Below, piece by piece: positions 41,539 through 64,000 of a DNA stretch of 64,000 bases. The position numbers and the translations under genes were made by a program. Origin of the DNA: Haloferax massiliensis (GTDB lineage Archaea; Halobacteriota; Halobacteria; Halobacteriales; Haloferacaceae); NCBI RefSeq assembly GCF_001368915.1, contig NZ_CSTE01000002.1, forward strand, positions 162,248 to 226,247. Direction: 5' to 3'. Below the pieces are notes generated by a model. The model did no database searches and was not told the DNA's origin. It saw only the letters and a program-made list of their open reading frames with translations. Numbering within the stretch: position 1 is the first letter of the stretch; every line of letters starts with the position of its first letter.

Positions 41539-42294
41539 ATGACGGTCATCGCCGTACTCGCCGAACCGCCGCGGCCGGGACTGGTGCTTTCGGAACTCGC
41601 TGAGACGAGTCCGCTCTCCGAGTCCGAAGCCGCGGAGCTCTACGCCGCGATGCTCAAAGACGTCTGTATCGCCGTCGAGCGGTCGGGCGGCGACCTCCTC
41701 GTCAACTACCGCGCCGAGGACGACATCCCCGACGAGTTCGCCGGGGACCACGACTCGGAGGCCGAGGTTCGGAGCGTCGTCGCCGACGCCCTCGGCGGCA
41801 CCGACGACGCGCGGTTCGAGCCGCAGGTCGGCTCGACGTTCTCCGCCCGAGCGGGCAACACCGTCTCGCACCTCCTCACCGAAGAGGAAGTTCACTCGGT
41901 CGCCGTCGTCCGCCCGGTCGCGCCGCTTCTCGGCCGCACCCATATCGACAGCGCGGCGATGAAGCTCCGGAGCACGCCGGTCGTCCTCGGTCCCTCGACG
42001 GAAGGTCGGGTCTACTTCTCGGGCTTCCTCGACCCAATCGACTTCACCGACGCCTACGCGGAGCCGGAAGTCGAGACGCTCGCCGAGGCGGCCGACGACG
42101 CGGGCCACGGCCTCGACTACGTCCCGATGTTGCCCGTCCTCGAAACGGGCGCGGACCTCGCCACGGTCGTCCCGATGCTCCGCTCGCGGGTCGAATCCGA
42201 GCGGCTCGTCCCCGAGCACACGACGACGTTCGTCTTCGAGAAGGGGCTTCGGGTCGAATCGACCGACGGCGTGTTGGAACTCGTCCGCGACTGA
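41539..42294 (+). CDS. Conserved hypothetical protein, possible nucleotidyl/glycosyltransferase-like (DUF2064-like)
   Basis: 251 residues, acidic, no membrane segment. The N-terminal TVIAVLAEPPRPGLVLSEL and the middle VAVVRPVAPLLGRTHIDSAAMKL loosely resemble DUF2064/GT-A-like proteins, in which a Rossmann half binds a nucleotide, but a clear DxD is not seen, so the assignment is weak. The C-terminal third (VPMLPVLETGADLATVVPMLRSR) fits that family better. The ATG is preceded by a GAGGGG element. It is followed 46 bases later by tRNA-Ser. Confidence 0.6.
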   Translation: MTVIAVLAEPPRPGLVLSELAETSPLSESEAAELYAAMLKDVCIAVERSGGDLLVNYRAEDDIPDEFAGDHDSEAEVRSVVADALGGTDDARFEPQVGSTFSARAGNTVSHLLTEEEVHSVAVVRPVAPLLGRTHIDSAAMKLRSTPVVLGPSTEGRVYFSGFLDPIDFTDAYAEPEVETLAEAADDAGHGLDYVPMLPVLETGADLATVVPMLRSRVESERLVPEHTTTFVFEKGLRVESTDGVLELVRD

Positions 42295-42340
42295 GCGAAG
42301 CGACAACACTTAGGTGTCCGACTCAAAATTCCCGTGTGAA

Positions 42341-42424
42341 GGTGGGATGGCGGAGTGGCCTAACGCGCCTGCCTTGAAAGCAGGTTTCCTCACGGAATCC
42401 TGGGTTCAAATCCCAGTCCCACCG
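42341..42424 (+). tRNA. tRNA-Ser (anticodon TGA)
   Basis: An 84-base class II tRNA. Acceptor GGTGGGA/TCCCACC, anticodon stem CCTGC/GCAGG with loop CTTGAAA giving TGA, a variable arm, T-arm TGGGTTCAAATCCCA and discriminator G. No full CCA is encoded. Its 3' end is duplicated downstream (see repeat), which marks it as a past integration target. Confidence 0.95.
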
Positions 42425-42574
42425 CATTCTCAGAGAACCGAGACGCGCAGGTTTAGCTGCGCGTCTCCGGTGAACGCGTGACGCGGAGACGGACTGTGAT
42501 TTGAACGAGACGAGTCGCAGCCCGAGCGGGGCGAGGGACCGTCTCGGCGTTGTTCAAATCCCAGTCCCACCGCA
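42404..42574 (+). repeat. 23-bp direct repeat of the tRNA-Ser 3' end (putative attL/attR scar)
   Basis: The segment GTTCAAATCCCAGTCCCACC plus GCA at 42404-42426 (T-loop, T-stem and acceptor strand of tRNA-Ser) recurs exactly at 42552-42574. Only 125 bases lie between the copies, with no coding potential. This is the classical signature left by an integrase acting on a tRNA gene; the element itself has been reduced to a scar, or the intervening DNA is a minimal remnant. Confidence 0.85.
42440..42467 (+). terminator. Strong hairpin after tRNA-Ser
   Basis: An 11-bp perfect inverted repeat, GAGACGCGCAG / CTGCGCGTCTC, with a 6-base GTTTAG loop, begins 15 bases past the tRNA. No T-run follows, so it may be a processing or recombination structure within the scar rather than a terminator. 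The remaining bases to 42629 hold the second att copy and nothing else recognised. Confidence 0.45.
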
Positions 42575-42629
42575 CTTACTACGCGACACCAACGACCCCA
42601 CAAAAAGCGACTAACAGCCCCCGACCAAC

Positions 42630-43361
42630 TCAGAACTGATACGCCATCATCACCTCGTCGATGTGTTCGTCGCCGATGGTGTAGTGGTCTCTGCGAATCG
42701 CCTCGGTCTCCCAGCCGTGGTCGCCGAGGAACTCCAGCGCGCGGTCGTTCGTCATCGGAACGCTGTTGTACACCTTCCGGAAGCCGTTGGCCTCGGCCCA
42801 GTCGAGGCCGCGACGAAGCAGGAGGCTCCCGATGCCCGACCCGCGGTAGTCCTCCTTGACGCCGACGGTCTGCTGGGCGGTCTCGCGGATGCGCGACACC
42901 TGCGGGAGGTCGAGATGCGTCCAGCCGACGACCTCCTCGCCGATGGTGGCGACGAAGAACACGCGGGACTCGACGCGGTTGTGGCGCGTGACCGCCTCGT
43001 CGTAGAGGAGCTGTTCGGCGATGGTCTCGGCGACGACGTACGTCTCCTCGGAGGTCACGTCGCGAATCGCGTCGATGAGGCCCTCGAAGTCGCGCTGGCG
43101 GCCCGGCCGGATGGTGACGACGCCGGCGTCGGTCTCGTGTTCCTCGATAGCGCCCACGTCGAGCGCCAACTGGAGCGTGCCGCCGTCTTCTTCGAGATAG
43201 CCGCGGGACTTCAGCCGGTCGAGTTCGCTCCGGAACTCGTCGGAGGGAACGGGCGCGACGTCGAGGAGGACGTTTCGCTTGGCGGTGCCGTGCCGCTCGA
43301 CGTACTCGTAAATCAGCTTGCTGGCCTCGGATTCGAACGTCGGGCGCTCGGTCGCTCGCAT
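42630..43361 (-). CDS. GNAT acetyltransferase with N-terminal wHTH-like region
   Basis: 243 residues. Residues 1-75 (FESEASKLIYEYVERHGTA, then RSELDRLKSRGYLEEDGG) resemble a winged-helix fold; residues ~88-243 are a GNAT domain with TIRPGRQRDFEGLIDAIRDV and the acetyl-CoA loop QTVGVKEDYRGSGIGSLLLRR. Such fusions in haloarchaea are suspected protein acetyltransferases or regulators; the substrate is unknown. The ATG at 43361 follows a GGAGTC ribosome-binding site, and upstream in-frame codons are rejected as non-conserved. Confidence 0.82.
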   Translation of the reverse strand: MRATERPTFESEASKLIYEYVERHGTAKRNVLLDVAPVPSDEFRSELDRLKSRGYLEEDGGTLQLALDVGAIEEHETDAGVVTIRPGRQRDFEGLIDAIRDVTSEETYVVAETIAEQLLYDEAVTRHNRVESRVFFVATIGEEVVGWTHLDLPQVSRIRETAQQTVGVKEDYRGSGIGSLLLRRGLDWAEANGFRKVYNSVPMTNDRALEFLGDHGWETEAIRRDHYTIGDEHIDEVMMAYQF

Positions 43362-63036: not shown

Positions 63037-63111
<75 letters not shown>

Positions 63112-63297
63112 TACCATTCTACCGCCGTCCCGCGTTTTCGAGCCGTGAATCCGGTTGTGATAGCCAATGTTTCAGGCCAAGCCGATTCACTCGACTCGAC
63201 GAACTCGACGCCGTCTTGCGATTAGCCGTTTTGTCCGGCCACGTAGATTCGCCGGGTTCAAACAGAACCGCAGGTACGGCCGCTGGAGGCGGCGTTC
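63112..63297 (+). other. Gap between tRNA-Glu and integrase
   Basis: 186 bases with lower GC than neighbours and stop codons in all frames over most of its length. Nothing recognisable except a TATA-poor promoter region for the integrase. It likely belongs to the element rather than the chromosome. Confidence 0.4.
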
Positions 63298-64000
63298 ATG
63301 AGCGATCTGGACGAGCTACCGGTCGTCACCGACGCCTCGAAGGAGTACCTGAACCCCCGCCAGTTACTCGACTACCGAGCCGAACGAGAGGCGTGTCTCG
63401 ACTGGCTGCTCACCTTCGGGAAGAAGCCCGACGAGGCGAAGGGGTACGCCCTCGGGACCATCAAGACGGGTGCATACCGGATGGACCGATTCTACCGGTT
63501 CGTCTGGGAACGAGAGGGTGGGTACACCGCGAACGTCACCCATGAGCACGCCGACGCGTGGATGAAGCACCTCGCACGCGGCGAATCCGGTGCGGCGCAC
63601 AAGCGCAACTGCCAGAAATCGACCAAGCGACTGTTCAAATGGCGACAACACGAGCACGGCCTCGGAGAGTGGAAGCCCGATATAACGTTCGCCGCCGACT
63701 CAAGCACGAACCCTCGTGACTACTTGACACGCGACGAGCGCTCGGCCGTGCGTGAAGCGGCACTCGAATACGGATCCGTCCCACACTATGACAGTCTTAC
63801 ACCAGCTGAGCGTGACCGCTGGAAGCGGTACCTCGCCCAGCGGTTCGAGAAGCCGAAGTCCGAGGTGACGCCGGACGACTGGGGCCAAGCAAACGGGTGG
63901 AAGATTCCGTCGCTCGTCTGGACGAGCCTCGACGCCGGACTCCGGCCCATCGAGGTAGAACGCTCCACGGTTAGTTGGATCGATACGGACAACGCGGTGC
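63298..64000 (+). CDS. Tyrosine-recombinase integrase, N-terminal part (runs off right edge)
   Basis: 234 codons are present; the end is outside the window. The N-terminal SAM-like/core-binding domain (EYLNPRQLLDYRAEREACLDWLLTFGKKP, then HAWMKHLARG-like ADAWMKHLARGESGAAHKRN) is followed by the catalytic domain; the first catalytic arginine lies in SLDAGLRPIEVE near residue 214. The His-x-x-Arg and Tyr lie outside. Haloarchaeal SSV-like or phage integrases have this architecture. Downstream of tRNA-Glu, so it likely catalysed insertion there. Codon use and GC are lower than in the genes to the left. Confidence 0.88.
   Translation, partial: MSDLDELPVVTDASKEYLNPRQLLDYRAEREACLDWLLTFGKKPDEAKGYALGTIKTGAYRMDRFYRFVWEREGGYTANVTHEHADAWMKHLARGESGAAHKRNCQKSTKRLFKWRQHEHGLGEWKPDITFAADSSTNPRDYLTRDERSAVREAALEYGSVPHYDSLTPAERDRWKRYLAQRFEKPKSEVTPDDWGQANGWKIPSLVWTSLDAGLRPIEVERSTVSWIDTDNAV

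Follow-up and report, generated by a model that had tools for sequence, protein, structure and literature searches.

The 148-bp unit that follows the tRNA-Ser(TGA) gene of Haloferax massiliensis is, we conclude with moderate confidence, part of a class-wide family of mobile cassettes that are short, non-coding and palindromic and lie directly behind tRNA genes of Halobacteria. If this is true, close to half of a haloarchaeon's tRNA genes are followed by an unannotated insertion from a single undescribed, class-spanning family, and the family represents a new kind of mini-element in which the target copy is tailored to each tRNA. The unit was identified in a 64,000-nucleotide stretch of contig NZ_CSTE01000002.1 (hereafter the window), and the positions below are counted from its first nucleotide.

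An earlier, sequence-only reading of this DNA had reported a 23-bp perfect repeat of the tRNA 3′ end, and the repeat is real: GTTCAAATCCCAGTCCCACCGCA occurs at 42404–42426 and again at 42552–42574, 100% identical and with a spacing of 148. The first copy consists of the final 22 nt of the tRNA-Ser(TGA) gene (42341–42425) and one further base. Two features had been overlooked, namely a third, inverted copy of the tail (15 of 16 nt) at 42491–42506 and a perfect 11-bp hairpin at 42440–42467. Since this hairpin and the inverted T-loop sit between both copies, the second repeat forms one side of a larger hairpin. The locus has these features:

42341–42425, plus strand: tRNA-Ser(TGA) gene, the target (ARAGORN; Rfam tRNA, 61.5 bits)
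42404–42426, plus strand: tRNA tail copy 1, from the T-loop to the 3′ end, within the functional gene (repeat comparison)
42426–42551, plus strand: cassette, comprising all between the tRNA end and the second tail, with no gene proposed (repeat comparison)
42440–42467, plus strand: hairpin 1, GAGACGCGCAG, a 6-nt loop and CTGCGCGTCTC, 11 bp perfect (inverted-repeat comparison and fold)
42491–42506, plus strand: inverted T-loop/T-stem copy (GGACTGTGATTTGAAC), which makes up the left arm of hairpin 2 (complementary to both tails at 15 of 16 nt)
42507–42551, plus strand: exchangeable loop, with an inner stem of about 42506–42512 with 42540–42546 (fold; matches in other Haloferax; loop clusters)
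42552–42574, plus strand: tRNA tail copy 2, right arm of hairpin 2 (repeat comparison)

The inverted T-loop copy is placed 45 nt ahead of the second tail. The fold of positions 42426–42600 reaches -84.9 kcal/mol, compared with a mean of -59.4 kcal/mol for dinucleotide-shuffled sequences (z -6.4), and 0 of 200 shuffles were as good. An Rfam search over 42000–43000 placed the tRNA alone above the gathering score and detected no other known RNA family. Within its own genome, a 261-base query from the locus matched itself and a second tRNA-Ser only.

Repeated tails are frequent in the window's genome and are found on one side of the genes. Rfam assigns 51 tRNAs to this genome, and ARAGORN, run without introns on the fetched stretches, 49. 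With other tRNA genes masked, a copy of at least 14 nt of the gene's own tail is present within 400 nt downstream of 22 of these 49 genes and upstream of none, while the tails of other tRNAs, used as a control, gave a mean of 0.3 over 20 shuffles; the tail repeat is therefore more than chance. Inverted tail copies of at least 12 nt lie downstream of 12 of the 49 genes and upstream of 0. If the cassette reading is true, tail repeats behind haloarchaeal tRNA genes are, taken alone, no evidence of a provirus.

The same placement is seen beyond this genome. A same-strand tRNA gene lies upstream, within 900 nt, for 168 of the 176 distinct hairpins read; none is located only upstream of a tRNA gene, and eight have no tRNA, at least one of which, in the window's genome, and another, at L137, are units displaced by inserted DNA. 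The 168 tRNA-linked hairpins follow 164 plain tRNAs and 4 with introns, representing 29 isoacceptors, and lie 30–55 nt (70 hairpins), 56–80 nt (52) or more than 80 nt (46) from the tRNA end.

The distribution was surveyed with the pattern GGATTTGAA-(20 to 50)-TTCAAATCC, which joins the inverted and the direct T-loop. This strict pattern, which misses decayed and variant units, was located 44 times in Haloferax, where 14 of 15 genomes have it, and is present across Halobacteria in 301 of 391 genomes and 77 of 86 genera. A comparison within the phylum found it in 62 of 81 Halobacteria versus 0 of 311 other genomes, and its T-loop variant TTCGAATCC in 18 of 26 Halobacteria versus 0 of 131 others. 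The reversed pattern, included as a control, gave 0 in every row of these counts. The tRNA-Ser(TGA) query matched all 15 Haloferax genomes, with the hairpin design visible in most, and its loop region (query positions 195–278) was also matched behind tRNA-Gly, -Leu and -Phe in other Haloferax. No description of such units was found in searches of a full-text collection of open PMC papers.

The units share a common order, in which the tRNA end is followed by hairpin 1, the inverted T-loop, a loop of 20–50 nt containing an inner stem, and the second tail. Among 152 units with the strict T-loop, 131 have a second tail for which the unit's own tRNA ranks first or joint first of 26 isoacceptors, and in 21 the best match is not the own tRNA. 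The second tail starts 2 nt before TTCAAATCC in 86 of the 152 and extends 11–12 nt past this motif, up to the tRNA end, in 90. A first impression from Haloferax examples, that both arms are cognate, was too strong, and only the second tail is. Past GGATTTGAA, the inverted arm scores above 95% of other tails in just 34 of 159 units, and it is own-best in 29 of 152, so that this arm is mostly a generic T-loop. Of 116 non-redundant hairpins, 43 have the motif GCGNAGC in the same strand as the tRNA and 3 have it in the opposite one; in 106, the loop is rich in purines when read along the tRNA strand. The loop of one Ser(TGA) unit (L006) is of the type found in its relatives, but reversed.

Closely related genomes can differ in whether a unit follows a given tRNA. 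At tRNA-Thr(GGT), the 15 Haloferax genomes include three with a complete 97-bp unit (L330, L332 and L341), one with a truncated unit (L328), one with a different unit (L329), six others with no recognised unit, and four clean empty sites (L327, L335, L337 and L340). When one 97-bp unit is removed from the tRNA-Thr(GGT) locus of the window's genome, the remainder aligns to the four empty species with 172, 181, 173 and 177 identical positions in 200 nt and no gap. At tRNA-Ser(TGA), genome G011 contains two units (143 and 148 bp) and G004 none, and G011 minus both units is identical to G004 at 197 of 200 positions, with 0 gaps. The equivalent comparison of the window's allele, minus its unit, with the empty G004 is unclean (175 identical, 22 mismatches and 6 gaps). 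Of the two units in G011, the distal one shares 97% identity with the window's unit and the proximal one 67%; therefore, the extra unit of G011 is the one that adjoins the tRNA. These empty alleles prove exact loss and not gain, because simple deletion between 20-bp repeats can yield them.

Tandem units were encountered at several loci. Five tandem hairpins in the order A B A B C stand behind tRNA-Ser(TGA) at L436 (G021:C1:704500-706900), in a genome of 2.1 Mb with 16 hairpins in all. The tRNA-Tyr(GTA) gene of the window's genome (L308) is followed by two successive, apparently identical tandem units, probably a recent tandem expansion. Identical units that are not in tandem occur at L146 (G008:C1:672000-683000), behind two tRNA-Ala(GGC) genes separated by about 4 kb of DNA that contains a possible HNH-type gene.

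Compared with shuffled sequences, 46 of 85 hairpin-1 regions and 30 of 85 loops fold with a z below -1.64. This strong folding, the invariable placement downstream of the tRNA and in sense, and the fixed polarity (GCGNAGC, 43 versus 3 of 116) would suit a functional RNA structure in the tRNA 3′ trailer, serving tRNA processing, termination or a small RNA. We regard such a role as improbable, and as less likely than mobile cassettes, given that, in one genome, a unit is missing behind roughly every second tRNA gene, that units are gained or lost between close species, and that the tRNA is the only Rfam family at gathering score. Isolated mismatches in the hairpin stems also show no bias of G–T over A–C (22 versus 18, or 9 versus 6 distinct contexts, a weak test with few recurring contexts), compared with 35 to 1 in the tRNA acceptor stems of the same loci. 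The stem mismatch pattern points weakly to a constraint at the DNA level.

Cassettes behind different tRNAs are related to each other. Comparison of 153 cassettes identified at least 70% identity in 327 of 7327 pairs of similar length from different tRNAs, at least 75% in 59 and at least 80% in 7, and the maximum reached with shuffled partners was 61% in 400 trials. The best such pair, from tRNA-Arg(CCG) and tRNA-Gly(TCC), is 85% identical over the whole cassette, with each member ending in the tail of its own tRNA. The parts of the unit differ in how closely they follow the tRNA. For the 55 Haloferax units that have a same-tRNA partner in another genome, the best match is at the same tRNA in 47 for hairpin 1, 42 for the inverted-arm flank and 34 for the loop. 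Loops thus move more freely than frames. Some of the pattern is vertical, given that the units of any one tRNA are frequently orthologs throughout the genus, as the 47 of 55 for hairpin 1 indicate. Loop clusters, counted for 64 of 67 Haloferax units (3 with loops shortened by the search expression were left out), number six in eight genomes at Thr(CGT) and four in ten genomes at Ser(TGA), and the largest, with 18 units, covers seven tRNAs.

Loop exchange is also what would be expected if a polymerase, switching templates at a stalled tRNA/hairpin region, copied the tail both ways, matched the palindromes and swapped the loops, leaving the units as by-products that need no recombinase. Two further properties agree with this account, which we consider unlikely but worth weighing. 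The arms covary with the T-loop variant, with an inverted C facing a direct G in three of the four G-type direct arms and T facing A otherwise, and the inner stems remain paired despite different sequences. The match between the inverted arm and the T-loop variant would fit correction by template switching as well as selection on the fold. Template switching does not readily explain why entire cassettes that are related to one another follow different tRNAs, each ending in the tail of its tRNA, why the polarity is fixed (106 of 116 loops rich in purines on the strand of the tRNA) or why the units are restricted to the class; moreover, the second tails extend beyond what the inverted arm could template.

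Under the mobile cassette reading that we prefer, a cassette would insert at the 3′ end of the tRNA gene, duplicating the tail and leaving the tRNA intact. The tail duplication may be a long target-site duplication, or the shared core of a site-specific recombination, and would explain why cassettes are shared among tRNAs but each second tail suits its new tRNA. A cassette would be lost when its two tails recombine. The generic inverted T-loop, which can pair with the tail strand, may serve target recognition, and the tRNA-sense strand might fold as single-stranded DNA. If true, this reading predicts a class-restricted enzyme, which would have to act in trans and is probably confined to Halobacteria; candidate mechanisms are a tRNA-directed tyrosine recombinase supplied in trans, or a long target-site duplication like those of casposons and CRISPR. 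No enzyme, circle or transposition event was seen in the genomes examined. Palindromes flanked by direct repeats are readily deleted in E. coli. If this holds here, the wide persistence of the units implies either frequent gain or selection.

A more specific form of this reading is offered tentatively. The units could belong to a Halobacteria cassette system at tRNA 3′ ends, part CRISPR adaptation and part integron, in which a class-specific enzyme would insert small folded-DNA cassettes beside the tRNA and duplicate the tail of whichever tRNA is used, arrays would grow with the newest unit at the tRNA, loops would be exchanged between arrays, and the tails would act as spare attachment sites for viruses or plasmids. 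Remnants of one element are found at the tail of a unit instead of at the tRNA in four Haloferax genomes.

Large integrated elements use the same tRNAs. The tail of tRNA-Thr(CGT) also marks the right ends of large insertions. In G002, G006, G013 and G014, the right end of a large element lies 6.5 to 45 kb from Thr(CGT), its element side lacks an inverted T-loop, and a unit follows directly (a partial one in G006); the unit is therefore the older, and the element entered at the tRNA itself, separating it from the unit. One element type has its left end after the tail of a unit in L342, L350, L463 and L464, and after the tRNA in L345, L347 and L355. Thus, the tail of a unit has served as an attachment site. 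If the cassette reading is true, it bears on the preference of archaeal integrases for tRNA 3′ ends, with the units providing a second attachment site that spares the tRNA. Locus L469 encodes a candidate integrase of haloarchaeal type, judged by eye and by motif.

These elements bear on what the sequence-only reading had made of the repeat, namely the scar of a lost element. It correctly connected the repeat with an integration-type process acting on the 3′ end of the tRNA, and one of its options, a minimal satellite, is close to the reading favoured here. Its other options, a collapsed element or a hot spot now empty, did not stand, as the segment is a structured downstream unit in most Haloferax, where it occurs without a large element, which is the finding that the reading had itself named as its refutation. 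In its explicit form, the scar would consist of attL and attR of a large tRNA-integrated element from which nearly everything between was deleted. The tRNA 3′ end is indeed present as a direct repeat on both sides, the same tRNAs are used by large elements, and at L137 (G005:C19:693500-702500) a 3.6-kb insert lies between duplicated tRNA-Glu-plus-unit blocks, whose tRNA parts are 96% identical and which share 57 nt of the unit at 100%; a 93-residue N-terminal integrase-like fragment, recognized by eye, adjoins the left block. However, the right ends at Thr(CGT) described above lack the inverted T-loop and are followed by an intact unit 6.5–45 kb from the tRNA in four genomes, and it is not plausible that repeated collapse produced the same two-hairpin design behind 29 isoacceptors. 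Neither an integrase gene or remnant nor element ends were found between the repeats, which enclose 125 structured bases of a kind shared across the class. The scar is thus largely refuted, and we consider it very improbable.

An integrated element of about 55 kb probably begins at the right end of the window. Sequence of foreign appearance follows tRNA-Glu(TTC) (63037–63111), occupying 63112–64000 and continuing beyond (G000:C2:226247-280043). The hairpin unit of tRNA-Glu(TTC) and a near copy of the 3′ part of this tRNA are located about 55 kb downstream, with a recombinase-like ORF nearby.

On this reading, the cassettes would be a kind of short non-autonomous mobile DNA, unusual as a family and ordinary as a repeat. 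They are filed here as a new variety because none of the known families compared was matched in all of its defining features. MITEs and REP palindromes are likewise short, non-coding, palindromic repeats, but the cassettes differ in having ends without terminal inverted repeats, a strict position at tRNAs and a tail tailored to the tRNA. Terminal inverted repeats, as expected of a MITE, were not found in the unit, whose inverted repeats are internal hairpins; a target-site duplication is present, with a tail of about 20–23 bp on both sides and one copy at the empty site. Integron cassettes are arranged in tandem behind one fixed site, and their attC sites are hairpins of conserved structure with the core GTTRRRY, a variable loop and polarity. 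The tandem arrays behind a fixed site, hairpins, variable loop and polarity are shared by the tRNA cassettes, but these contain no gene, the tail has GTTCAAA in place of the GTTRRRY core, and the tails follow the target tRNA. A K-turn, a PBS-like retroelement and a protelomerase were also considered and were dropped for lack of fit.

Three further systems were compared through excerpts of published accounts. Archaeal elements with tRNA-targeting tyrosine integrases (SNJ2, HSTV2, pR1SE and others) include, in the excerpt of PMC8371274, three integrase families confined to Halobacteria, a range that would agree with that of the cassettes. As in the elements of that excerpt, the tRNA 3′ end is both the target and the flanking direct repeat, and the tRNA remains intact; unlike them, the cassettes have no integrase gene, measure about 80–150 bp, contain an inverted T-loop, occur at many isoacceptors and form tandem arrays. 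Large elements insert next to a unit and do not have the hairpin.

Casposases, as presented in the portion of PMC6977970 consulted, insert at the 3′ ends of archaeal tRNA genes with a target duplication of 14–15 bp, and CRISPR spacer integration duplicates repeats of generally 25–50 bp with tandem growth beside the leader. The cassettes resemble both, to the extent described in that portion, in the duplicated target, casposons in the proposed insertion at tRNA 3′ ends and CRISPR in the tandem growth; they differ in that the unit has no Cas1 gene or terminal inverted repeats and in the tail of about 20–23 bp, which spans the T-loop to the tRNA end. The unit is too short for Cas1, and the search for casposon-type terminal inverted repeats within it found none. 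PATEs, which are IS605-related elements of Haloquadratum, are characterized in the available section of PMC3119063 as having no target duplication, and this section does not present them as tRNA-bound. Like the PATEs of that section, the cassettes occur in haloarchaea, are too short to code and have near-terminal palindromes; unlike them, the cassettes have a direct repeat of 20–23 bp, and they lie only behind tRNAs in the copies read. The duplicated tail separates the cassettes from PATEs and IS605-type elements, for which near-terminal palindromes related to an IS605 element and no target duplication would be expected.

Viral carriers of the pattern were sought in IMG/VR, where 106 stretches matched, chiefly as weak hairpins on contigs rich in A+T. 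The seven best, on GC-rich contigs of bacterial appearance, consist of a single tRNA tail (ending ATGCCCCGCTAC) in palindromic form and are not haloarchaeal units. These near-perfect tRNA-tail palindromes (GGTTCAAATCCATGCCCCGCTAC) of 40–61 bp, on the apparently bacterial phage contigs L231, L243, L247, L262, L264, L291 and L302, are perhaps palindromic attachment sites.
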